Assembly: GCF_016765675.1 (NCBI RefSeq)
Contig: NZ_JAESWB010000005.1
Location: 1-64,000, forward strand
DNA: 64,000 nucleotides
DNA from: Neobacillus paridis
GTDB lineage: Bacteria > Bacillota > Bacilli > Bacillales > Cytobacillaceae
Reading direction: 5' to 3'
Shown here: piece after piece, positions 17,223-40,813 of the stretch
Numbering within the stretch: the stretch's first letter is position 1
Layout: every line of letters begins with the position of its first letter
Program-made: the position numbers and the translations under genes
The notes under the pieces: generated by a model
Told to the model about the DNA's origin: nothing
The model's database searches: none
What the model saw: the letters and a program-made list of their open reading frames with translations, nothing else

Positions 17223-17280
17223 TTTACAAAATTTTTTTGTGAGTTATAATACCCATATAGGTATAAACCCCATGGGGTAT
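17223..17280 (+). promoter_or_regulatory. promoter and double CstR-type operator of the CoA-disulfide reductase gene
   Basis: TTTACA (17223-17228) and TATAAT (17245-17250) are 16 bases apart. The -10 box runs into ATACCC-ATATA-GGTAT (17249-17264), and 2 bases further lies the perfect palindrome ACCCCATGGGGT (17267-17278). G/C tracts flanked by AT in this form are the operator type of CsoR/CstR-family repressors. The same word occurs before other genes of the cluster. Confidence 0.75.
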
Positions 17281-17304: not shown

Positions 17305-18963
17305 ATGACCAAAAAAATTATTATTATTGGCGGGGTGGCCGGCGGTGCAACCGCTGCTGCTCGGTTAAGAAGATTAAGTGAAGATACTGAAATTATTCTA
17401 ATTGAACGCGGGGAGCATATTTCCTTCGCAAATTGCGGGCTGCCTTATTACATTGGTGAAACCATTAAAGAACGCAATAAATTGCTGGTACAAACGGTCA
17501 AAGGAATGTCAGACCGCTTCAACTTGGACATTCGTACATTAAGTGAAGCGGTAAGCATCCATCCGGAAAATAAAACGGTCTCAATTAAGAATTTACAAAC
17601 AGGTGAAATATACGAAGAAACATACGACAAATTACTATTATCTCCCGGAGCCAGACCGATTGTTCCGCCTATTCCTGGGTTACAAGAGAATCAATCTTTA
17701 TTCACCTTGAGAAATATTCCAGACACTGATAACATTAAACATTATGTCGATACTGCCCAGCCGAAACAGGCGGTTATTATCGGCGGGGGATTCATTGGCA
17801 TCGAAATGGCTGAAAACCTTGCCGCTAGAGGAATTGAGGTAACCATAATCGAACGTGGCAATCAGATTATGGCTCCACTTGATTTAGAAATGGCCAGTAT
17901 TTTGCACACTCATTTAACAGAAAAAGGGGTCAAGTTAATTCTTGAAAACGGCGTTGAAGCCTTTTCCGATGCTGGAAAGAAAGTGATTTTGACAGATGGC
18001 ACAGAAATTGAAACAGAGTTAACGATTCTTGCGATCGGCGTCAGACCGGAAAATGAATTAGCGAAAAATGCCGGTCTTGAATTAGGAGAGCGGGGAGGAA
18101 TTGTTGTTAACGAATACCTGCAAACCTCAAACGCTGACATTTATGCTGTAGGCGATGCCATCGAGGTCGTCGATTATATAAACGAAACAAAGGTGATGAT
18201 TCCGCTTGCCGGACCGGCAAACCGTCAAGGTCGGATTGCCGCCAATAATATCATGGGTAAAGCCGAGAAGTATCAAGGCACGATGGGTACTTCGATTGCG
18301 AAAGTGTTTGATCTGGCCGTTGCGACTACGGGGAATAACGAAAAAACATTAAAACGTTTAGGTGTTTCTTATGAAGTGGTCCATATTCACCCAAGCTCCC
18401 ATGCCGGTTATTATCCTGGAGCGGCGCCAATTGCCTTAAAGCTGATTTTTGATAAGGAAACGGGCAAAATCTATGGTGCCCAAGCAGTTGGAGCGGATGG
18501 GGTCGATAAACGGATGGACGTCATTGCCACGGCGATTAAAGGCGGGTTGACAGTGGAGGATTTAACCAACCTGGAATTATCGTACGCACCTCCATTTTCT
18601 TCTGCAAAGGATCCGGTAAATATGGCCGGCTATGTGGCAACAAATATCATGGATGGCGAATTGGAGCATATTCAATGGCATGAAGTCGATCAAATTGTTG
18701 CGAATGGCGGACTGTTAATTGACGTGCGCGAACCTAAGGAACGGGAAGCTGGTTATATTAAGGGTTCCATCAATATTTCATTAAATGATTTGCGGAAGCG
18801 GTTATCAGAACTGCCAAAAGACGAGACCATTTATGTCAGCTGCCAAGTTGGCCTAAGAGGTTATTTGGCCAGCCGAATTCTAAAAAACAACGGCTTCCGG
18901 GTGAAAAATGTTGACGGTGGCTGGAAAACCTATTCAGCAGTTTATAGAAGTAATGCAAATTAA
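17305..18963 (+). CDS. CoA-disulfide reductase fused to rhodanese domain
   Basis: This 552-residue flavoprotein has an FAD-binding IIIIGGVAGGATAAARLRR start, the active-site Cys44 in SFANCGLPYYIG, the NAD(P)H-binding GGGFIGIEMAENLAARG segment, and the YAVGDAIEV FAD contact, then a C-terminal rhodanese domain (about 450-552) with nucleophile Cys513 in VSCQVGLRG. Such CoADR-rhodanese fusions reduce CoA disulfides, CoA persulfide and polysulfide with NAD(P)H, and the rhodanese hands over sulfane sulfur. It heads the persulfide cluster and carries CstR-type operators upstream, so induction by sulfide or polysulfide is likely. Confidence 0.93.
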   Translation: MTKKIIIIGGVAGGATAAARLRRLSEDTEIILIERGEHISFANCGLPYYIGETIKERNKLLVQTVKGMSDRFNLDIRTLSEAVSIHPENKTVSIKNLQTGEIYEETYDKLLLSPGARPIVPPIPGLQENQSLFTLRNIPDTDNIKHYVDTAQPKQAVIIGGGFIGIEMAENLAARGIEVTIIERGNQIMAPLDLEMASILHTHLTEKGVKLILENGVEAFSDAGKKVILTDGTEIETELTILAIGVRPENELAKNAGLELGERGGIVVNEYLQTSNADIYAVGDAIEVVDYINETKVMIPLAGPANRQGRIAANNIMGKAEKYQGTMGTSIAKVFDLAVATTGNNEKTLKRLGVSYEVVHIHPSSHAGYYPGAAPIALKLIFDKETGKIYGAQAVGADGVDKRMDVIATAIKGGLTVEDLTNLELSYAPPFSSAKDPVNMAGYVATNIMDGELEHIQWHEVDQIVANGGLLIDVREPKEREAGYIKGSINISLNDLRKRLSELPKDETIYVSCQVGLRGYLASRILKNNGFRVKNVDGGWKTYSAVYRSNAN

Positions 18964-18985: not shown

Positions 18986-19014
18986 TTGACAATATACCCT
19001 CATACGTATAATAT
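18986..19014 (+). promoter_or_regulatory. promoter/CstR-type operator of cstR
   Basis: TTGACA (18986-18991) is followed by the operator word ATACCC-TCATAC-GTAT (18994-19009) and a -10 TAATAT (19009-19014; 17-base spacing). The site lies between -35 and -10, as expected for autorepression. Confidence 0.68.
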
Positions 19015-19052: not shown

Positions 19053-19316
19053 ATGGAATATAATGATCAAATAAAAAATCGCGTCAAGCGGATTGAAGGA
19101 CAATTAAGAGGAATCTTAAAAATGATGGAAGAAAATAAAGATTGTAAAGAAGTCATTACACAGCTATCCGCCTCCAGAACGGCGATTGATCGCGCCATTG
19201 GGGTGATAGTCAGCTCCAATTTGGTTGATTGTGTAAAAAAAGCCAACGATCAAGGAGAGCAAAATATGGAAGATTTAGTAAAAGAAGCGGTGAATTTATT
19301 GGTTAGAAGTCGATAA
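19053..19316 (+). CDS. cstR: CstR, persulfide-sensing CsoR-family repressor
   Basis: This 87-residue four-helix DUF156 repressor has IKNRVKRIEGQLRGI at the N-terminus and the two Cys of CstR at positions 31 (NKDC) and 60 (NLVDC). The His that completes the copper site in CsoR is an Asn here (SSNLVDC), so it should not sense copper; in S. aureus CstR, Cys31 and Cys60 are linked by sulfane sulfur, releasing DNA. GGGAGGGG precedes the ATG. It sits amid rhodaneses and CoADR, and its operator word occurs before its own gene and others of the cluster. The true copper sensor CsoR is at 35664. Confidence 0.93.
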   Translation: MEYNDQIKNRVKRIEGQLRGILKMMEENKDCKEVITQLSASRTAIDRAIGVIVSSNLVDCVKKANDQGEQNMEDLVKEAVNLLVRSR

Positions 19317-19409: not shown

Positions 19410-19706
19410 ATGAAACAAATCACGGCAAAAGAAGTTGAGGCCTTACTGAACCAAAATAAACAATTAAATATCATCGATGTTCGTGAAGTAAGTGAAGTAG
19501 CGACAGGCAAAATTCCAGGTGCAGTGAACATCCCACTAGGACTGTTAGAATTTCGCATGCAAGAATTGGACAAATCAAAGGAATATATCATTGTTTGCCA
19601 TTCAGGGGGGAGGAGCTTCCGAGCGGCCCAATTCCTTGAAAGCTATGGATATAATGTCACTAACATGAATGGTGGAATGCTTGCCTGGACTGGCCGAGTA
19701 GAATAA
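19410..19706 (+). CDS. rhodanese-domain protein (single domain, cytosolic)
   Basis: This is a 98-residue single-domain rhodanese. The fold starts with ITAKEVEALL and IIDVREVSEVATGKIPGAVNIPL, and the catalytic loop CHSGGRS carries the persulfide-forming Cys. No signal or membrane segment. It moves sulfane sulfur between thiols; together with CoADR and CstR it belongs to a sulfide/persulfide homeostasis operon. The ribosome site AGGGGA lies before the ATG. The HesB-like selenoprotein gene follows 84 bases downstream. Confidence 0.93.
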   Translation: MKQITAKEVEALLNQNKQLNIIDVREVSEVATGKIPGAVNIPLGLLEFRMQELDKSKEYIIVCHSGGRSFRAAQFLESYGYNVTNMNGGMLAWTGRVE

Positions 19707-19790: not shown

Positions 19791-20078
19791 ATGCTAAAAG
19801 TCACGCCTGCTGCCATCACAGCGATTACCAAAGAGGTTCAAGATGTAATTGATGAAGGGAAAAAGCCGCTAATCCGCTTATCTATGGGAATTGGCTGAGG
19901 GGGTCCGCAGCTTCGTCTGACTCTGGAAGAGTCAGCTTTAGATAGTGATGAAATCACGGAACAGGACGGCATTCAATTTTTGGTCAATGAAAGAGACCAA
20001 GTATATTTTAATCAAACAAAACTGGATTATGTTAAATCTTTATTTGGAGAAGGAGAATTTAAGCTGCTCCGGGTATAA
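19791..20078 (+). CDS. HesB-like selenoprotein (in-frame UGA at codon 36)
   Basis: Read with UGA (19896-19898) as selenocysteine, this is a 95-residue protein: MLKVTPAAITAITKEV at the start, then SMGIG-U-GGPQLRLTLEE, and FGEGEFKLLRV at the end. The pattern is that of the HesB/IscA-like fold, and of the known HesB-like selenoprotein family in which Sec replaces the Cys of the G-x-G-C-G-G motif. Frame and protein character continue over 59 codons past the UGA to a TAA and terminator. AATGGAGG lies before the ATG. A hairpin CTGACTC-TGGAA-GAGTCAG starts 18 bases after the UGA and can be the SECIS. Only the Sec position carries a thiol/selenol; there are no Cys residues. It lies between two rhodanese genes. 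Confidence 0.88.
19917..19935 (+). promoter_or_regulatory. putative SECIS hairpin of the HesB-like selenoprotein gene
   Basis: A 7-bp perfect stem CTGACTC / GAGTCAG has loop TGGAA, with G at the second loop position. It begins 18 bases after the UGA, within the usual bacterial SECIS distance. Inference from position and shape. Confidence 0.6.
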
Positions 20079-20079
20079 G

Positions 20080-20111
20080 GAAAGGCAGCGGTTTAAGCTG
20101 CCTTCTTTTCT
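20080..20111 (+). terminator. terminator of the HesB-like selenoprotein gene
   Basis: The stem AAGGCAGC / GCTGCCTT with a 7-base loop is followed by CTTTTCT. Confidence 0.82.
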
Positions 20112-20168: not shown

Positions 20169-20184
20169 ATACCCATACCGGTAT
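20169..20184 (+). promoter_or_regulatory. CstR-type operator upstream of rhodanese 2
   Basis: ATACCC-ATACC-GGTAT is a near-perfect copy of the cluster operator. It abuts the AGGAGG ribosome site, so repressor binding would be just downstream of transcription start. Confidence 0.65.
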
Positions 20185-20197
20185 AGGAGGTTGCAAA

Positions 20198-20560
20198 ATG
20201 CAATATCTAAATTATATTATTATTGCCTTACTTATTTTTCTGATCGTTAAGCGGTTCTTGCCTGTAAAAGGGATTACCAATATTTCTACTGCTGAATTAA
20301 AAACCATTCTAAATGACAAGAACAAACAATTTGTCGATGTCCGTACACCTGGGGAATATAAAGGAAATCACATAAGAGGGTTCAAAAATATCCCGCTCCA
20401 GCAGCTTGGACAAAAGGCAGCAAAAGAACTGTCCAAGGAAAAAGAAGTAGTCGTCATTTGTCAAAGCGGAATGAGAAGCAAACAGGCCAGTAAATTGTTA
20501 AAAAAACTAGGATACTCAAATGTCATTAATGTAAAAGGCGGCATGAGTGCCTGGTACTAA
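20198..20560 (+). CDS. membrane-anchored rhodanese-domain protein
   Basis: This 120-residue protein has an N-terminal membrane helix (about residues 5-22, NYIIIALLIFLIVKRFL) followed by a rhodanese domain: ISTAELKTILND, FVDVRTPGEYKGNHIRGFKNIPL and catalytic loop CQSGMRS. Positive residues after the helix place the domain on the cytosolic side. It resembles YqhL/YibN-type proteins. A CstR-type operator sits directly in front of the AGGAGG site, so it is a member of the persulfide regulon. Confidence 0.92.
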   Translation: MQYLNYIIIALLIFLIVKRFLPVKGITNISTAELKTILNDKNKQFVDVRTPGEYKGNHIRGFKNIPLQQLGQKAAKELSKEKEVVVICQSGMRSKQASKLLKKLGYSNVINVKGGMSAWY

Positions 20561-20694: not shown

Positions 20695-21363
20695 ATGCAG
20701 GTTATCCAAATGGGTTCAATCGCTGTTTTGCTTAAATGGCTGCTGCTTGGGGCGGCACTATTTATTGGGCTGGCGATTTTGAAGCTGTGGTTGAGGCGAA
20801 CACAAGAAAAAATACTACATAAACAAGTTATCGATTTATTTTTTAATAGCTTATTTTTCGGTTTTATTTGCTGGAAAGGGAGTTTATTTATTATTGATCC
20901 AGTACTAGTAATTAAAAGCCCCTTGTCATTATTATATTTTACCGGGGGAACGACAGGGCTCGTTCTCGCCGTTGTCGGCTCGATCATTTTCTATTTTTTT
21001 AAAGCAAATAAATCCAACATAACAGATAGGCTTATTTTACAATCCGGATTCTTATACAGTTTCGCTGTGATAGGCGTTTATCACCTCTTGGCCACGCTTT
21101 TGCTTGAGGAGCAGAAGTTGAATCATATTATTTCAGGTTTATACACATTTGCAATCGTTATTTTCGCATTTTGGAAACATCAGATGGTTACCCAACAGCG
21201 AATTTTTTCCAGTCTCATCCTATTTTCGTTTCTTAGCCTTAGCCTATCGTTCATACAGCTGAGCGTTGAACGGAAAATATGGTTATTTTCAGCACAACAG
21301 TGGTTTTTCGTTGTCCTCATAATTGTTTCATTAATTTTTTGGGATAAAAAGTCGAAATCTTAA
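20695..21363 (+). CDS. polytopic membrane protein of unknown function
   Basis: This 222-residue protein has about seven hydrophobic segments and one Cys (GFICWKGSLF). I do not recognise a family with confidence; the middle part (FICWKGSLF ... YFTGGTTGLVLAVVGSIIF) is faintly reminiscent of prolipoprotein diacylglyceryl transferase, but the catalytic His/Arg pattern is not evident. AGGGGGA supports the ATG. It is followed after 35 bases by a TlpA/ResA-like thioredoxin and lies behind a CstR-type repeat, so a role in membrane thiol or persulfide handling is plausible. Confidence 0.75.
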   Translation: MQVIQMGSIAVLLKWLLLGAALFIGLAILKLWLRRTQEKILHKQVIDLFFNSLFFGFICWKGSLFIIDPVLVIKSPLSLLYFTGGTTGLVLAVVGSIIFYFFKANKSNITDRLILQSGFLYSFAVIGVYHLLATLLLEEQKLNHIISGLYTFAIVIFAFWKHQMVTQQRIFSSLILFSFLSLSLSFIQLSVERKIWLFSAQQWFFVVLIIVSLIFWDKKSKS

Positions 21364-21398: not shown

Positions 21399-21965
21399 AT
21401 GTTAAAAAAAATCATTGCCGTCATTTTTTTGCTTGGACTGGTTGGCTGGGCAATTTATGATCATACCTCAAAACCAACAGAAGCTGAAAAAACGGTGCAG
21501 GAAGCTCAGCCATCCGGGCAAAAATCAGCAAAAATTGGCTTTCAAGAAGGAAACAGAGCGCCTAATTTTGAATTGCAGACTCTAGACGGAAAACAAATAA
21601 GCCTCTCTGATATGAAAGGGAAGAGGCTGATTCTCAATTTCTGGGCGACCTGGTGCCCGCCATGTAAAGCGGAAATGCCGCATATGCAGAAATTTTATCA
21701 GGAACAGAAAGGCAACAATATCGAAATCCTGGCCGTTAATTTAACAACAGGAGAGAAAAATCCAAAAGATGTTGCGAAATTTGTCAAAGATTACGGTTTG
21801 ACCTTTCCAATCTTACTCGACAGCTCAGGAGAAATAGGTGAGGCTTATCAAGCCTTCACGATTCCGACCAGCTATATTATTGATTCCCATGGAATCATCA
21901 AAAAGAAAATAGTCGGGCCAATGGATAAGGAAATGATGACTGAGCTTATCAAGAGCATTGACTAG
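21399..21965 (+). CDS. TlpA/ResA-family thiol-disulfide oxidoreductase
   Basis: This 188-residue membrane-anchored thioredoxin-like protein has an N-terminal helix (about residues 5-20) and, outside the membrane, a TlpA/AhpC-type domain with active site WCPPC (in NFWATWCPPCKAEMPHM) and the cis-Pro segment FTIPTSYIID. ResA-type proteins reduce extracytoplasmic thiols, for example apocytochrome c. The protein directly follows the unknown membrane protein and is likely in one operon with it. A paralog with WCGPC lies at 44749. Confidence 0.92.
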   Translation: MLKKIIAVIFLLGLVGWAIYDHTSKPTEAEKTVQEAQPSGQKSAKIGFQEGNRAPNFELQTLDGKQISLSDMKGKRLILNFWATWCPPCKAEMPHMQKFYQEQKGNNIEILAVNLTTGEKNPKDVAKFVKDYGLTFPILLDSSGEIGEAYQAFTIPTSYIIDSHGIIKKKIVGPMDKEMMTELIKSID

Positions 21966-30069: not shown

Positions 30070-30127
30070 ATCATAAAGGTTAGGAAGGAAGTCCGCAAAA
30101 AAATCATGCGGAAATAATCTCATTACC

Positions 30128-30198
30128 CACTCATAGTCGGATCGTTTACGGCAATCCGGTAGAAACTTGCGGGCCCTATCCCCGCGATTATATGAGTG
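30128..30198 (-). promoter_or_regulatory. purine (guanine-class) riboswitch aptamer of xpt-pbuX
   Basis: The minus strand reads CACTCATATAATCGCGGGGA...CCGACTATGAGTG, the purine aptamer with helix P1 (CACTCAT/ATGAGTG), P2 and P3 loops with the conserved tertiary bases, and the core GACTATG, in which the specificity base is C, so it should bind guanine or hypoxanthine and not adenine. It precedes xpt-pbuX. Confidence 0.95.
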
Positions 30199-30223
30199 AA
30201 ACAATATTAAATTGAATAATGAC

Positions 30224-33986: not shown

Positions 33987-34025
33987 AAAAACAGCGAAGC
34001 AACTGACGCTTCGCTGTTATCTTTT
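33986..34025. terminator. bidirectional terminator between tdh and selD
   Basis: AACAGCGAAGC / GCTTCGCTGTT (11 bp, 7-base loop) with an A run on one side and ATCTTTT on the other. The selD stop codon lies at the stem foot. Confidence 0.9.
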
Positions 34026-35069
34026 AACATAGATCCATTTATCTTGTTTTTCCAAAACGCGCCCGACAATAGCCGCTTGGGCAATTCCCTTTGACCGAAG
34101 TTGCTGCACATATTGTTCAGCTTCTGCTTCCAGAAGCGAAACCAGCAGCCCGCCTGATGTAACGGCGTCACATAAGACTAATTGCTCCTCAGGCAAAATG
34201 TCCTCATAAACGATATCATTTTGGAGCCATTTGTGATTGGATTTCGAACCGCCCGGAACAACACCATTTTTCGCTAATTCCACCGTACCGTTAAGGAGCG
34301 GTACCTGAGAGAATGAAATTTCGAAACTAACATCACTCCCGCGGGCCATTTCGCTGCCATGACCGAGCAGGCCAAATCCGGTTACATCGGTAACAGCATG
34401 CGGCTGGAAGGCTGATAAGGTTTCGGCAGCTATTTTATTGAGCATCGCCATCGTTTCGGTAACGAGTTGCTCCTGCTCGGCTGTAACCGCACCTCGCTTT
34501 ATTCCGGTAGTCAAGATGCCGACTCCAATCGGCTTTGTTAACACAAGAGCATCACCTGGTTTGGCACCAACATTTTTCCATACTTTTTCCGGATGAACAA
34601 TACCTGTGACGGAGAGGCCAAACTTTGGTTCCTGGTCGTCGACTGAATGTCCGCCGACCGTCACGGCTCCTGCTTCTTTGACTTTATCAGCAGCCCCGCG
34701 TAATATTTCCACCAGCATGTCTGGACCGAGCTTTTGAATCGGATATCCGACAATGTTGAGAACAGTTTTTGGCTCACCGCCCATGGCATATACATCACTC
34801 AAGGCATTGGCAGCCGCAATTTGTCCAAACATATAGGGATCATCCACCACTGGTGTAAAATAATCAACCGTTTGGATGAGAGCAATGTCATCAGTTAATT
34901 GGTATACCCCGGCGTCATCACTTGTCTCGTTGCCAACAAGCAATTCCGGAACTGGATCTTGTTTTGGTAACTGACGCAAAACTTGCGTCAAGTCCTCAGG
35001 ACCAATTTTGCAGCCTCAACCGGCTTTTGTTGATAATGAGGTTAGGCGGATTTTCTCTTGTTCACTCAT
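34017..35069 (-). CDS. selD: selenide, water dikinase (selenophosphate synthetase), Sec-containing
   Basis: SelD makes selenophosphate from selenide and ATP for Sec and selenouridine synthesis. With the UGA at 35018-35016 read as Sec the protein has 350 residues: MSEQEKIRLTSLSTKAG-U-GCKIGPEDL..., Sec at position 18, where other SelDs have Cys or Sec, and the essential Lys at 21. A GGAGGTG site precedes the ATG at 35069. Without Sec decoding only a truncated form starting past the active site would be called. Downstream parts VQTVDYFTPVVDDPYMFG, GGHSVDDQEPKFG and TDVTGFGLLGHG are the ATP/Mg region. A hairpin TGACGCAA-GTT-TTGCGTCA follows the UGA by 25 bases. Divergent from the SelW-like gene. 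Confidence 0.95.
34972..34990 (-). promoter_or_regulatory. putative SECIS hairpin of selD
   Basis: On the minus strand TGACGCAA-GTT-TTGCGTCA forms a perfect 8-bp stem with a GTT loop, 25 bases after the UGA. A smaller hairpin GTCC-TGA-GGAC begins 13 bases after the UGA and is an alternative. Both meet the usual bacterial distance of loop to UGA. Confidence 0.55.
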
Positions 35070-35137
35070 TTTGTACACCTCCAATACTTAGTAGTATACC
35101 TTTTTCAGTTTAAAACCGCACGAGTCAAGCAAAGGAT

Positions 35138-35166
35138 TTGCAAACCAAGATTGGCTGAGATAGAAT
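35138..35166 (+). promoter_or_regulatory. promoter of the SelW-like gene
   Basis: TTGCAA (35138-35143) and TAGAAT (35161-35166) are 17 bases apart, 44 bases before the TTG start, in the divergent selD / SelW-like spacer. Confidence 0.6.
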
Positions 35167-35210
35167 ATTTTAAACCAAATAGATATTGTTTTAAAATGGA
35201 GGTCTTTATC

Positions 35211-35450
35211 TTGAAAAAGTATCAGGTCATCATTGAATTTTGCATGATGTGAAATTACGCGCCTAAAGCCGCGAGTTTCGCGGAAGAGTTAATTACCCAT
35301 TTTAGAAGAGGCATTGAAAAAGTAGAATTAATTCCCAGTTCCGGCGGGGTTTTCGAAGTAACGGTCAACGGAGAAAAAATATATTCAAAGGATGAAACAG
35401 GTCTTTTCCCAGACACCGAGGAAATAATTAAAATAATGGAAGCAGAATAA
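35211..35450 (+). CDS. SelW/Rdx-family selenoprotein (in-frame UGA at codon 14)
   Basis: With UGA (35250-35252) read as Sec, this is a 79-residue protein: MKKYQVIIEFCMM-U-NYAPKAASFAEELI..., then SSGGVFEVTVNGEKIYSKDETGLFPDTEEIIKIME. The C-x-x-U motif at the end of the first strand, followed by the helix and the G-x-F-E-V...G-x-x-I-x-S-K...G-x-F-P elements, is the complete thioredoxin-like Rdx/SelW pattern. These are thiol redox proteins. TGGAGG lies 8 bases before the TTG start; an ATG five codons upstream overlaps that site. A hairpin CCGCGA-GTT-TCGCGG starts 16 bases after the UGA. The gene is divergent from selD and ends with a strong terminator. Confidence 0.92.
35269..35283 (+). promoter_or_regulatory. 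putative SECIS hairpin of the SelW-like gene
   Basis: CCGCGA-GTT-TCGCGG is a perfect 6-bp stem with loop GTT, 16 bases after the UGA. The loop begins with G, as in bacterial SECIS elements, and has the same GTT triloop as the selD hairpin. Confidence 0.65.
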
Positions 35451-35462
35451 CGGAGGGATCCA

Positions 35463-35495
35463 ATGTTCAGCAGGCTCCGAAACTTAGCAGATTGA
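35463..35495 (+). other. mini-ORF with good ribosome site ending in a terminator stem
   Basis: GGAGGG lies 5-6 bases before an ATG that opens a ten-codon frame (MFSRLRNLAD) ending at a UGA (35493-35495) that is part of the 5' arm of the terminator. It could be a leader peptide or chance. Confidence 0.3.
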
Positions 35496-35523
35496 GAACA
35501 AAACTTCTTGATCTGCTTTTTTT
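35486..35523 (+). terminator. terminator downstream of the SelW-like gene
   Basis: A 13-bp stem AGCAGATTGAGAA / TTCTTGATCTGCT with loop CAAAAC is followed by seven T. Confidence 0.93.
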
Positions 35524-35603
35524 GACTAAATATAATTTAAAAGTTACAATTTTAGATTTTTTCCCGGTTCTAATTAAAGATGAATTTTGAGGATATTTTT
35601 TTG

Positions 35604-35633
35604 TTGACTAAATATAGGATAGGGGGGTATAGT
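35604..35633 (+). promoter_or_regulatory. promoter and CsoR operator of csoR-copA
   Basis: TTGACT (35604-35609) and TATAGT (35628-35633) flank TATAGGATAGGGGGGTATA. The G-tract half matches the CsoR operator seen before copZA-type operons in Bacillus; the left half is degenerate. Confidence 0.68.
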
Positions 35634-35663
35634 AATAGTACAAACAAAAGGGAAGTGATTTTA

Positions 35664-35966
35664 ATGGAGAAATTCTTACACGATCACCCGAGTACCCCTA
35701 GGAGCAAAGACGAAAAGCAAGCGATTATCAACCGTTTAAAACGAATAGAGGGTCAAGTTCGCGGCATACAAAAAATGGTCGAGGACGATCGATATTGTAT
35801 CGATATTTTAGTCCAAATCAGCTCGATTCAATCAGCATTAAAACAAGTAGGTTTCTCAATTACCGAACGGCACATCAAACATTGTGTCAGCGATGCGATC
35901 AAAGCTGGTGAGGGGAATGAAACAATTGAAGAATTAATGACTGTCATGAAGCAATTTTCTAAGTAA
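35664..35966 (+). CDS. csoR: CsoR, copper-sensing repressor
   Basis: This 100-residue DUF156 repressor has the full copper site: Cys45 (DDRYC), His70 and Cys74 (ERHIKHC), with the same numbering as B. subtilis CsoR. Cu(I) binding releases the repressor from the copper operon. The ATG at 35664 follows GGGAAGTGA; a longer frame upstream covers the promoter and is not translated. It lies ten bases ahead of copA and is probably co-transcribed and autoregulated by the G-rich operator. Compare CstR at 19053, which lacks the His. Confidence 0.95.
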   Translation: MEKFLHDHPSTPRSKDEKQAIINRLKRIEGQVRGIQKMVEDDRYCIDILVQISSIQSALKQVGFSITERHIKHCVSDAIKAGEGNETIEELMTVMKQFSK

Positions 35967-35975
35967 GGGGTGGTT

Positions 35976-38366
35976 ATGGTGAGTGAATTAAAGCATGCAA
36001 CACTTGGAGTTACAGGAATGACCTGTGCCGCCTGCTCTAACCGGATAGAAAAAACATTAAATAAAATGGCCGGTGTGGAAGCACAAGTGAATTTTACAAC
36101 AGAAAAGGCATCTGTTCATTACGATCCGGAAAAAACCTCGATCGCCGAGATTACCGATAAAATTGAAAATATCGGTTATGGTGTTCTGACGGAAAAAGCG
36201 GAATTCGATGTCTTCGGGATGACGTGTGCCGCTTGTTCCAGCCGGATTGAAAAAGTACTCAACAAACAAGCTGGCGTTAAGCAGGCAACGGTAAACCTAA
36301 CAACGGAAAGTGCAACCATTGAATATACACCTGGATTAATAGATGAAAAAACCTTAATTGAAAAAATCCAACATATCGGCTATGACGCCAAACCAAAGGC
36401 AGAGGCAGAAGAAAAACAAACGTATAAAGAGAAAGAGCTGCAGCATAAGAAAACAAAGTTAATGATTTCCGCAGTTCTATCTGCACCATTATTAATCACC
36501 ATGCTCGTTCATTTATTCGGCATGACGCTGCCAGAAATTTTCATGAATCCATGGTTCCAATTTGCTTTGGCGACCCCGGTTCAATTTATTATTGGCTGGC
36601 AATTCTATGAAGGTGCTTATAAGAACCTAAAGAATGGCGGCGCAAATATGGATGTGCTGGTCGCATTAGGAACAAGCGCTGCCTATTTCTATAGTTTATA
36701 TGAAGCATTAAAGACGATTGGCGATCCTGCTTACATGCCGCATTTATACTATGAAACAAGTGCGGTTTTAATCACCTTGATTTTATTTGGCAAATATTTA
36801 GAGGCAAGAGCGAAGAGCCAAACAACCAATGCGATCTCCGAATTGCTTAATTTACAAGCTAAAGAAGCCCGTGTGATTAGAGATGGGAAAGAAGTGATGA
36901 TTCCTGTCGAAGCTGTAGTCGTTGGCGATCATTTAATCGTCAAACCAGGAGAAAAAATACCCGTAGACGGTATGGTTATTAAAGGAAGAACATCCGTCGA
37001 TGAATCGATGTTGACCGGCGAATCGATTCCAATTGAAAAAGAACCCGGGGCGAATTTAATCGGGTCGACCATCAATAAAAATGGTTCAATTGAAATGGAG
37101 GCCAAGAAAGTTGGGAAAGATACCGCACTTGCCTCGATTATCAAAGTAGTCGAGGAAGCTCAAGGATCGAAAGCGCCGATCCAACGGTTGGCCGATGTAA
37201 TTTCCGGTTATTTCGTTCCAATTGTCATTGGGATAGCTGTCCTAACCTTTATCATTTGGATTTCTTTTGTTCAACCTGGACAATTTGAACCGTCATTAGT
37301 CGCGGCCATTGCCGTCCTTGTTATTGCTTGTCCATGTGCACTGGGGCTGGCAACTCCTACTTCAATAATGGTAGGTACCGGAAGAGCTGCTGAAAGCGGA
37401 ATTTTATTTAAAGGCGGCGAACACTTAGAACGAACTCATGAAATTAATGCGATTGTTTTGGATAAGACGGGAACCATTACAAAGGGAAAACCAGAGGTAA
37501 CTGATTTTTCAGGTGATGCAGAAACATTGCAATTATTAGCTAGTGCCGAAAAAGGTTCTGAACACCCGCTTGCGGAAGCGATCGTGGCCTATGCAGCAGA
37601 GAAAAATATTCATTTCTTGGAAGTGGATCATTTTGCGGCGATACCCGGTCACGGGATCGAAGCAGAGATTTCTGGACAGCAGATTCTTGTCGGAAATCGA
37701 AAATTAATGAACGATCACCAAATTGACATCGAAAGTGCGACTGAAGAGAAATTAATTGAATTTGAAACCGGTGGTAAAACAGCGATGCTGATTGCCATTG
37801 AGGGAGAGTATCGCGGCATCATTGCGGTGGCTGATACAATTAAAGACACCGCTCCAGAAGCGATCAAGCAATTAAAAGAAATGGGCATTGAAGTGATCAT
37901 GTTAACGGGTGATAACGAGCGGACAGCCCAAGCCATTGCCAAACAAGCCGGCATCGATCAAGTGATTGCTCAAGTGCTGCCTGAGGAAAAAGCAGATAAA
38001 GTAAAAGAAATACAGCAACAGGGTAAAAAAGTGGCCATGGTGGGTGATGGCGTGAATGATGCACCAGCATTAGTAACCGCTGATATTGGGATTGCGATTG
38101 GAACTGGAACAGAAGTAGCCATTGAAGCCGCTGACGTGACGATTCTCGGCGGTGAGCTATTGCTGATTCCAAAAGCGATTAAAATCAGCAAAGCAACCAT
38201 TCGCAATATCCGCCAAAATCTTTTCTGGGCTTTCGGATACAACACAGCGGGCATTCCAATTGCCGCGCTTGGCCTGCTGGCACCATGGATCGCCGGTGCT
38301 GCCATGGCCTTAAGTTCGGTAAGTGTTGTCTCTAACTCACTCCGCTTAAAACGGGTGAAACTCTAG
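35976..38366 (+). CDS. copA: copper-exporting P1B-type ATPase
   Basis: This protein of about 796 residues exports Cu(I). Two N-terminal heavy-metal domains carry [13 protein letters not shown] and [13 protein letters not shown]. The membrane part has the CPC ion site ([15 protein letters not shown]), the A domain has the TGES loop ([11 protein letters not shown]), and the ATPase head has [10 protein letters not shown] (phosphorylated Asp), the SEHPLAEAI motif and [10 protein letters not shown]. The start is either ATG at 35976, 5 bases after AAGGGG, or the next GTG. It is regulated by csoR upstream; copZ follows after a repeat. Confidence 0.96.
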
Positions 38367-39397: not shown

Positions 39398-40813
39398 GTG
39401 AAAGAAACTTTACAGATGATCCCGCCTGTCCATGAACTGCAGCACCATCCACAATTTGCAGATATTGTTAAACAGACGAGACTCGACACGGTCCAGCTGA
39501 CGAAGCAATTAAAAATAGTAATAGAAGAAATACGAAAAGCGATTCTTCAAGGTAATTGGAATGGGCCGCTTCCTGGAACGGCTGGCTTCATCGAGGAACT
39601 TTTTCAATTGCTGCTAAAGTCAGCCACAAAGGAATTTTCTTTTACTTTAAAAAGAGTGATCAATGCAACCGGGACGATTTTACATACCAATTTGGGCAGA
39701 GCCCGTTTAAGCAAGACTGCAATTAGCCATGTGGTTGAGACCGCAGAAAATTATTCCAATCTTGAGTATCGGCTGGATCAAGGGGAAAGAGGTTCCCGTC
39801 ACAGTCACATTGAAGCTCTATTGACAAAAATTACCGGTGCAGAAGCTGCGATGGTCGTGAACAATAATGCCGCTGCTGTGTACCTAGTCTTGCGGGCGCT
39901 GGCTGAAAATAAAGAAGTGGTCGTTTCAAGGGGCCAGCTTGTCGAGATTGGCGGTTCATTCCGCATTTCTTCTATTATGAAGGAAAGCGGCGCCAGACTA
40001 GTGGAAATTGGGACAACCAATAAAACGCATCTATATGATTACGAAAACGCGATCACGCCAGACACAGCGATGATCATGAAGGTCCACACCAGCAATTTTA
40101 AGGTGATTGGTTTTGCCGAAACGGTACCCACAGCGGAACTTGTTCAGTTTACCAAAACGCTTGATGATGTGATCTATTACGAAGATTTGGGCAGTGGGGC
40201 CTTATTTGACTTTAGACAGCATGGTATTGGTGAGGAGCCGGTGGTTAAAGAGGTCATTGCTATGGGGACGGATATTGTAACCTTTAGCGGCGATAAATTG
40301 CTGGGAGGGCCTCAGGCAGGAATTATTGCCGGGAAAAAGACATTTATTGATCGGTTGAAAAAACATCAATTGGCAAGAGTAGTCCGGGTCGATAAGATGA
40401 CCCTTGCGGCGCTTGAAGGTACATTATTAGATTATGCCCGCGGTGAAAAAGCGATTCGCAATATTCCAACCATTCGTGATTTATTGCGGTCAGTTAATGA
40501 AATAGACGAACGATCACACGCTTTTGTTACAAAACTATTACAAAAAACTACCATTTTTGAAGCGAATATTTTTCCTGATGTCAGTCAAGTAGGCGGTGGA
40601 ACAATGCCTGAAGTTCAGCTGCCAACCATGGTGATTGCTTTAAGACATCAGTCCTTGACTGCCGAACAGCTGAGCAGAAAATTACGCATCGAGGCCAAAC
40701 CAGCGATTATCGGCCGGATCCAAAAGGATGAATTTCTCCTTGATCTACGAACGGTTTCCAAAGAAGAAGAGGAGCTGATTCTTGAAGCCTTAGCGAATAT
40801 TGAGACACATTAA
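39398..40813 (+). CDS. selA: L-seryl-tRNA(Sec) selenium transferase
   Basis: SelA is a 471-residue PLP enzyme that converts Ser-tRNA(Sec) to Sec-tRNA(Sec) with selenophosphate. Seen are INATGTILHTNLGRARLS, the YSNLEYRLDQGERGSRHSHIE segment, and the PLP Lys in VTFSGDKLLGGPQAGII; length matches the family (about 460). Start GTG after AAAGGAG. The usual partner selB does not follow; the next genes are spore genes. Presence of selA distinguishes true Sec insertion from selenouridine-only use of SelD, so it supports the three UGA-containing genes in this window. Confidence 0.96.
   Translation: MKETLQMIPPVHELQHHPQFADIVKQTRLDTVQLTKQLKIVIEEIRKAILQGNWNGPLPGTAGFIEELFQLLLKSATKEFSFTLKRVINATGTILHTNLGRARLSKTAISHVVETAENYSNLEYRLDQGERGSRHSHIEALLTKITGAEAAMVVNNNAAAVYLVLRALAENKEVVVSRGQLVEIGGSFRISSIMKESGARLVEIGTTNKTHLYDYENAITPDTAMIMKVHTSNFKVIGFAETVPTAELVQFTKTLDDVIYYEDLGSGALFDFRQHGIGEEPVVKEVIAMGTDIVTFSGDKLLGGPQAGIIAGKKTFIDRLKKHQLARVVRVDKMTLAALEGTLLDYARGEKAIRNIPTIRDLLRSVNEIDERSHAFVTKLLQKTTIFEANIFPDVSQVGGGTMPEVQLPTMVIALRHQSLTAEQLSRKLRIEAKPAIIGRIQKDEFLLDLRTVSKEEEELILEALANIETH

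Follow-up and report, generated by a model that had tools for sequence, protein, structure and literature searches.

A HesB-like gene with a predicted selenocysteine codon in a putative CstR-type sulfane-sulfur regulon of Neobacillus paridis and related bacilli

HesB-like selenoproteins were catalogued in 2006 (PMC1794560), are described by the motif UxGP (PMC13188914) and amounted to 90 proteins in 86 organisms in a survey of 2016 (PMC5029168); 75Se labelling revealed one in Methanococcus maripaludis, the function of which was called not clear in 2024 (PMC11097638). For the sulfur chemistry of interest here, the nearest described systems are the yrkD/cst cluster of Bacillus licheniformis, with CstR/YrkD, DsrE, rhodanese, TusA, PDO and TauE (PMC9918477), DsrR, an IscA-like protein without Fe-S binding according to a title cited in PMC11406059, and ScCsoR, the sulfane-sulfur-sensing repressor of Streptomyces, whose site ATACC-N6-GGTAT was likened by its authors to the sites of copper CsoR and RicR (PMC7533328). 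In the titles and abstracts of the open-licence literature, we found no report linking a HesB-like selenoprotein to a CstR-type regulon. The initial annotation of the locus considered here did not know the combination as a whole from any description; the protein family is in fact long known, and it is the tie to a CstR-type regulon alone that seems new.

The analysed window comprises 64,000 nucleotides of Neobacillus paridis (contig NZ_JAESWB010000005.1, positions 1 to 64,000), and its relevant features are collected in Table 1. The hesB-like frame starts with ATG at 19791, contains an in-frame TGA at 19896-19898 (codon 36) and ends with TAA at 20076-20078, exactly where the initial annotation had placed it. 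The ribosome site and the terminator claimed there are likewise present, the former as a Shine-Dalgarno-like GGAGG 9 nt 5' of the ATG and the latter as a terminator-like hairpin. The translation (MLKVTPAAIT...MGIGUGGPQLRL...) has 95 residues, U counted, and contains no Cys at all, as had been stated. Two rhodaneses, a CoA-disulfide reductase (CoADR) and a repressor were correctly said to enclose the gene. This repressor has two Cys and no metal-site His (C31/C60/V61), as is typical of CstR-type repressors. The upstream rhodanese is separated from hesB by a gap of 84 nt, in which we looked for a terminator and found none, and the two genes probably form one transcription unit.

Table 1. Features of the window that bear on the hesB-like gene
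Feature	Position	Strand	Remarks
Two operator-like sites before CoADR	17249..17280	+	0 and 1 mismatch
CoADR fused to rhodanese	17305..18963	+	CoADR part matched by models, rhodanese part assigned by its likeness to the neighbouring rhodanese
Operator-like site ATACCCTCATACGTAT before cstR	18994..19009	+	1 mismatch, within promoter-like site
CstR-like DUF156 repressor	19053..19316	+	C31, C60, Val61
Operator-like site ATACTCATATGGGTAA	19352..19367	+	2 mismatches; 58 nt 5' of the rhodanese-hesB unit
Single-domain rhodanese	19410..19706	+	Upstream gene of same probable unit as hesB
hesB-like gene, predicted selenoprotein	19791..20078	+	95 aa with Sec as residue 36; PF01521 match (E 1.3e-8) above cut-off
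UGA read as selenocysteine	19896..19898	+	TGA in 61/61 relatives
Bacterial SECIS hairpin CUGACUCU-GGA-AGAGUCAG	19917..19935	+	Paired stem, conserved codons, core in 60/61
Intrinsic terminator-like hairpin 3' of hesB	20082..20104	+	
Perfect operator-like site ATACCCATACCGGTAT before rhodanese 20198-20560	20169..20184	+	
Rhodanese with hydrophobic N-terminus	20198..20560	+	
Operator-like site before 222 aa gene	20639		2 mismatches
Hydrophobic 222 aa protein	20695..21363	+	No Pfam or NCBIfam match
ResA/TlpA-type thiol-disulfide oxidoreductase	21399..21965	+	Homologs near 22/61 relatives
selD, itself with in-frame UGA 35018-35016	34017..35069	-	KAGUGCK; SECIS-like hairpin after UGA
selA	39398..40813	+	About 20 kb from hesB-like gene

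The initial annotation had named three findings that would speak against selenocysteine: a sense codon other than Cys in close homologs, a frame disrupted in related strains, and a genome lacking selB and tRNA-Sec. In a scan of named genomes, whose peptide patterns did not require TGA and neither step of which asked for it, the codon is TGA in 61 of 61 loci, and the frame is intact in the relatives. In a class-level sample of 398 genomes, 19 (the source genome among them) gave a match with an E value of 1e-13 or lower. Each of these matches carries one TGA, although the search profile itself has Cys in the Sec column. Close relatives with a Cys form were found neither among the 61 loci nor among these 19 matches. 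Matches free of a stop, among those listed, show only about 26-40% identity; of three that were read, two (L178 in genome G077 and L180 in G055) align as SufA type with the motif GGGCSG, with a CGCG end seen in L178, and the third (L179 in G043, 35% identity) has diverged and carries Cys where the window protein has Sec. The presence of TGA in 29 of 29 group 1 copies was discarded as evidence, because these copies had been picked by their TGA. The claim of protein-like sequence on both sides of the UGA is borne out by purifying selection, with a median dN/dS of 0.135 for codons 1-35 and of 0.148 for codons 37-92 (378 pairs of 28 sequences, of which 338 and 372, respectively, were usable).

Directly downstream of the UGA follows a hairpin that we assign to the bacterial SECIS elements by the usual rules of placement. 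Its core, CTCTGGARGAG, begins exactly 22 nt past the UGA in 60 of the 61 loci, the departure being a G for one T in L097, and this 11-mer occurs 61 times on the plus strand over the 1.03 Mb of these loci. Codon usage is frozen in the same region: all 29 group 1 copies have CTG at codons 43 and 45 and GAG at codon 47 (expected codon homozygosities 0.25, 0.74). Across 31 distinct sequences, 98.4% of the 248 cells of the eight-pair stem are paired, compared to 27-57% in slid controls. Covariation is modest in alignment A1, with one double change and a score reached by 37 of 500 shuffles, because the helix is mostly invariant, and we make no claim of strong covariation; it is somewhat better in the nine paralogs of alignment A2 (two double changes, 4 of 500 shuffles). 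The stability of the hairpin in the window, taken alone, is not unusual (z -0.4 to -1.7).

The source genome (4.63 Mb in 424 contigs) encodes the complete set of SelA, SelB, SelD and tRNA-Sec. The genes selA (561 bits) and selD (404 bits) lie within the window, and selB (369 bits, over the cut-off) and tRNA-Sec (66 bits, over the gathering score, with ARAGORN in agreement) lie on a contig other than that of the window. Among our own genome and 99 relatives, at least 56 have a one-TGA match of the window subfamily or its paralogs among the matches listed; 55 of these 56 possess selB, and the exception is a draft of 720 contigs that has tRNA-Sec. Of the 44 genomes without such a match among those listed, 22 have selB. 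By the evidence of sequence, we take the UGA to be a selenocysteine codon, because TGA is found in every relative, selection acts on both of its sides, a SECIS core follows it and selA, selB, selD and tRNA-Sec are present. The same observations lead us to reject the reading of the UGA as a true stop, with the frame a pseudogene or a product of chance, for which nothing was found beyond the stop codon itself and to which we assign a vanishingly small probability.

By its in-frame UGA, selD is itself a selenoprotein gene. The window contains a third one, a SelW-like frame at 35211-35450 on the plus strand that adjoins selD divergently (UGA at 35250-35252; Rdx, PF10262, 81.5 bits; CxxU as FCMMUNY). 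A purine riboswitch aptamer is located at 30114-30215 on the minus strand (92 bits).

The affiliation with the HesB-like families, for which the initial annotation had proposed a search, stands in the wide sense of an Fe-S_biosyn domain combined with UxGP: the protein matches PF01521 with 35.5 bits against a cut-off of 26.3, and its motif is UGGP. It does not extend to the curated family TIGR01911, which the window protein fails to match at E 1e-3; a search of its own genome at E 0.01 gave no match for the window gene either, and the curated cut-off of 66.35 bits is thus missed. The window protein shares with the TIGR01911 (UxGP) family the PF01521 domain, the in-frame UGA, the sequence U-G-G-P and the small, single-domain build, but differs by its tie to a CstR-type regulon. 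Among the relatives, 8 of the 19 members of alignment A3 match TIGR01911 at E 1e-3. A second HesB-like UGA frame of the same genome (L088:1453-1731, minus strand, G000:C253) has GFGUAEPK and a C-terminal CC, contains the core CTCTGGAGGAG as in the window gene and comes closer to TIGR01911, with 50.9 bits, still under the cut-off; an operator-like site is absent from the 1.5 kb upstream of it.

An AlphaFold2 model, obtained with 19 aligned relatives and with the UGA entered as Cys, reached a mean pLDDT of 92, and its best Foldseek matches are AQ_1857, IscA, SufA, HI1723, a model of YneR and DsrR of Allochromatium vinosum. The modelled fold is that of IscA, as known from the IscA/SufA/ErpA carriers (1r94, 1x0g, 2d2a), and in a profile alignment Sec36 falls on IscA Cys35, in line with the claim that the UGA occupies the place of the metal or redox Cys. 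Carriers of the A-type have three conserved Cys, one plus a C-terminal CxC, the latter being used by IscA for cluster binding. In the window protein, by comparison, the first of these Cys is Sec and the C-terminal CxC is missing, and it scores far under the curated cut-offs of the NCBIfam models for IscA, ErpA, SufA and IscA_HesB_Se; 54 of the 61 members are free of Cys, and the other seven have one. Fold and position of the Sec would be compatible with a carrier of the A-type, for Fe-S clusters or iron, that binds iron through the pair of selenolates in a dimer and serves to protect or repair clusters under sulfide and persulfide stress. This is the main rival of the function that we propose below, but the lack of the CxC and of Cys in most members argues against it, and we consider it unlikely. 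A further argument against it is DsrR (2k4z), which has the IscA fold, is linked to sulfur oxidation and, by the title cited in PMC11406059, does not bind Fe-S; unlike the window protein it belongs to the Dsr system, and the two share 26% identity. By analogy, DsrR may serve as a precedent for an IscA fold engaged in sulfur work.

The persulfide context that the initial annotation saw in the window is conserved in relatives. We inspected flanks of up to 9 kb per side of the 61 named-genome loci, several of them cut by contig ends, for ten cst/yrk-type markers. A first count found at least one marker in 45 loci; it was lowered to 41, because the sole marker of four loci (L097, L108, L112 and L113) was a repressor hit that we read as another DUF156 type, with 31-37% identity and a His-x-x-Cys-type end. 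By the same correction, loci with a CstR-like repressor fell from 30 to 26, and these repressors are 61-84% identical. At least three markers occur in 33 of the 61 loci, and a single one in 7 of the 41; PDO-rhodanese is found in 32, TusA in 32 and TauE in 29, and ResA, which was left out of the ten markers, in 22. In the flanks examined, 20 of the 61 loci have no cst-type marker. A frequent gene order is CstR, TusA, DsrE, rhodanese, rhodanese, TusA-rhodanese, DsrE, PDO-rhodanese, TusA, TauE, hesB. In the 18 class-level loci, with flanks of 1.5 kb, repressor and rhodanese lie close to hesB in four (L156, L158, L161, L172), from three families. Judged by gene content, the sulfur link of the hesB-like gene reaches beyond the window. 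The yrk cluster of B. licheniformis resembles the hesB-bearing clusters in its sulfur genes, but its 11 listed genes include no HesB and the word is absent from the main text of the paper (PMC9918477), which suggests that Bacilli are able to run the pathway without the hesB-like protein.

Two loci are noteworthy for their arrangement. The large plasmid pBO1 of Cytobacillus oceanisediminis (L177) carries a cst-type operon with a hesB-like selenoprotein gene; its table in PLSDB, which is incomplete and omits pseudogenes, has cst-type genes on both sides and no entry for hesB, likely an annotation gap. L051 (G018), which is also L097, has three tandem hesB-like frames in about 5 kb, two of them full with TGA and one a match without the UGA part.

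An ORF directly upstream on the same strand is present in 53 of the 61 loci. Among the 25 of 28 Pfam families listed for these genes, TauE leads with 16, followed by thioredoxin or redoxin types with 9, DsrE_2 with 8, rhodanese with 4 (two of them PDO-rhodaneses), glutaredoxin with 4, and TusA, repressor and OsmC with 2 each. A-type carriers work with glutaredoxins, and those found here would suit the Fe-S carrier; an Fe-S assembly family, which would have suited it as well, is not among the 25 listed. The thioredoxin or redoxin types, glutaredoxins and OsmC proteins could also point to a general one-Sec redox enzyme acting on peroxides, disulfides or electrophiles, which would share the CstR-type regulon by chance. 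The context, however, is dominated by sulfane-sulfur genes and operator-like sites, and we regard such an enzyme as improbable.

The persulfide context is extended by these operator-like sites, the motif of which is the same 16-mer as the ScCsoR site (compared with PMC7533328). In the window they precede CoADR, cstR, both rhodaneses and the 222 aa gene by 29 to 59 nt, with 0 to 2 mismatches, and the site before the rhodanese-hesB unit, with two mismatches, has clearer counterparts in relatives. The whole window contains 32 sites with at most two mismatches against 19.2 expected, and their density peaks on the cst cluster, with 7 in 3.5 kb (one inside a gene) against a mean of 1.8. An operator directly before hesB itself was rejected, the sole candidate, at -160, having two mismatches and lying inside the rhodanese gene. 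Among the relatives, 11 of 61 loci have a site with at most one mismatch in the 250 nt before the gene, against a dinucleotide-shuffle mean of 0.4; over 1500 nt the count rises to 20 of 61, against 1.9. Of 55 loci, a single one has such a site 5.0-6.5 kb downstream. Of the 20 markerless loci, 7 have such a site within 250 nt upstream (shuffles average 0.14, with a maximum of 3 in 100) and 13 within 2000 nt (mean 0.87, maximum 4), and none was found within 2 kb in L097, L127, L128, L129, L138, L143 and L151. Of five more distant relatives, L074, L076, L077 and L087 have a site 26-53 nt upstream and L075 has none; the UGA could be placed in 9 of the 18 class-level loci, and among these a site lies no more than 200 nt upstream in two (L155, L163) and at greater distance in three, with none in the other four.

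Nine HesB-like UGA paralogs (L078-L086) form a separate group, eight from the same genus and one from another family. The gene next to them encodes a glycerol-3-phosphate acyltransferase (cluster c9, by Pfam); they share 41-57% identity with the window protein, and both kinds occur together in several genomes. None of the nine has a site within 2000 nt or a sulfur gene of clusters c0 or c2-c6. The acyltransferase locus could not serve as a clean negative control, since L087, beside the same gene cluster, has an operator-like site at -26; the split thus follows the sequence group better than the locus. We read membership of the hesB-like gene in the putative regulon as partly independent of its gene neighbourhood.

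The motif alone names no regulator, because copper CsoR sites are similar. Conceivably, a copper CsoR binds the operator and the hesB-like protein serves in copper or metal handling, given that operators of the CsoR family resemble each other (PMC7533328) and that a CsoR-CopA pair is encoded at 35580-38366 of the same window. However, no site with at most two mismatches occurs in 35112-36168, around the csoR-copA promoter, and the repressor beside hesB has C31/C60/Val61, compared to a His-Cys pair (H101/C102) in the other repressor of the window. We therefore regard a role in copper handling as very improbable.

The computation supports UGA coding, the SECIS element, the Sec machinery, the fold, the conserved sulfur neighbourhood and the operator-like sites, and a part for the selenol in persulfide or Fe-S chemistry is our inference. 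We propose, at about an even chance, that the protein is a selenol-based acceptor or carrier of sulfane sulfur, made once a CstR-type repressor has been inactivated by sulfane sulfur and reset by thiol partners. Inactivation of the repressor, presumably CstR in the window strain, would permit transcription of the rhodanese-hesB unit, and SelB would insert Sec at the UGA through the SECIS hairpin just 3' of the codon. The single selenolate, positioned like Cys35 of IscA, could then take up sulfane sulfur as a selenenyl sulfide, with rhodanese, TusA, DsrE or low-molecular persulfides as donors, and the sulfur would be passed on, or the Sec reset by an external thiol of a glutaredoxin, a ResA-like protein or a low-molecular thiol. 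A protein with one selenolate and no resolving Cys would fit the part of a carrier or of a one-selenol reductase, and candidates for the reset are found among the neighbours in the glutaredoxin, ResA-like and thioredoxin-like proteins. Several observations weigh against the proposal: the 20 markerless loci, seven of which are also devoid of a site with at most one mismatch in the 2 kb upstream, the two mismatches of the site before the rhodanese-hesB unit, the likeness of the motif to copper CsoR sites, the operator-like site of L087 at the acyltransferase locus, and the B. licheniformis cluster with no HesB among its listed genes. More tentatively, and at somewhat under an even chance, we view the protein as a dedicated selenol-based carrier or reductase of sulfane sulfur, with an IscA fold that has lost the Cys for cluster binding and has one Sec, which may have been recruited to the persulfide-stress regulon of Sec-using bacilli.

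Both Sec coding and the persulfide-regulon setting of the hesB-like gene are supported by what can be read from genomes. If the carrier reading is true, this would be, to our knowledge, the first bacterial selenoprotein dedicated to reactive sulfur species, and a dedicated selenol carrier or reductase would represent the first function for HesB-like selenoproteins. The gene neighbourhood, together with operator-like sites that are present even at part of the markerless loci, opens the question of HesB-like function to direct experiment: the conserved tie to a sulfane-sulfur regulon would provide HesB-like selenoproteins with a testable role, accessible in bacilli.
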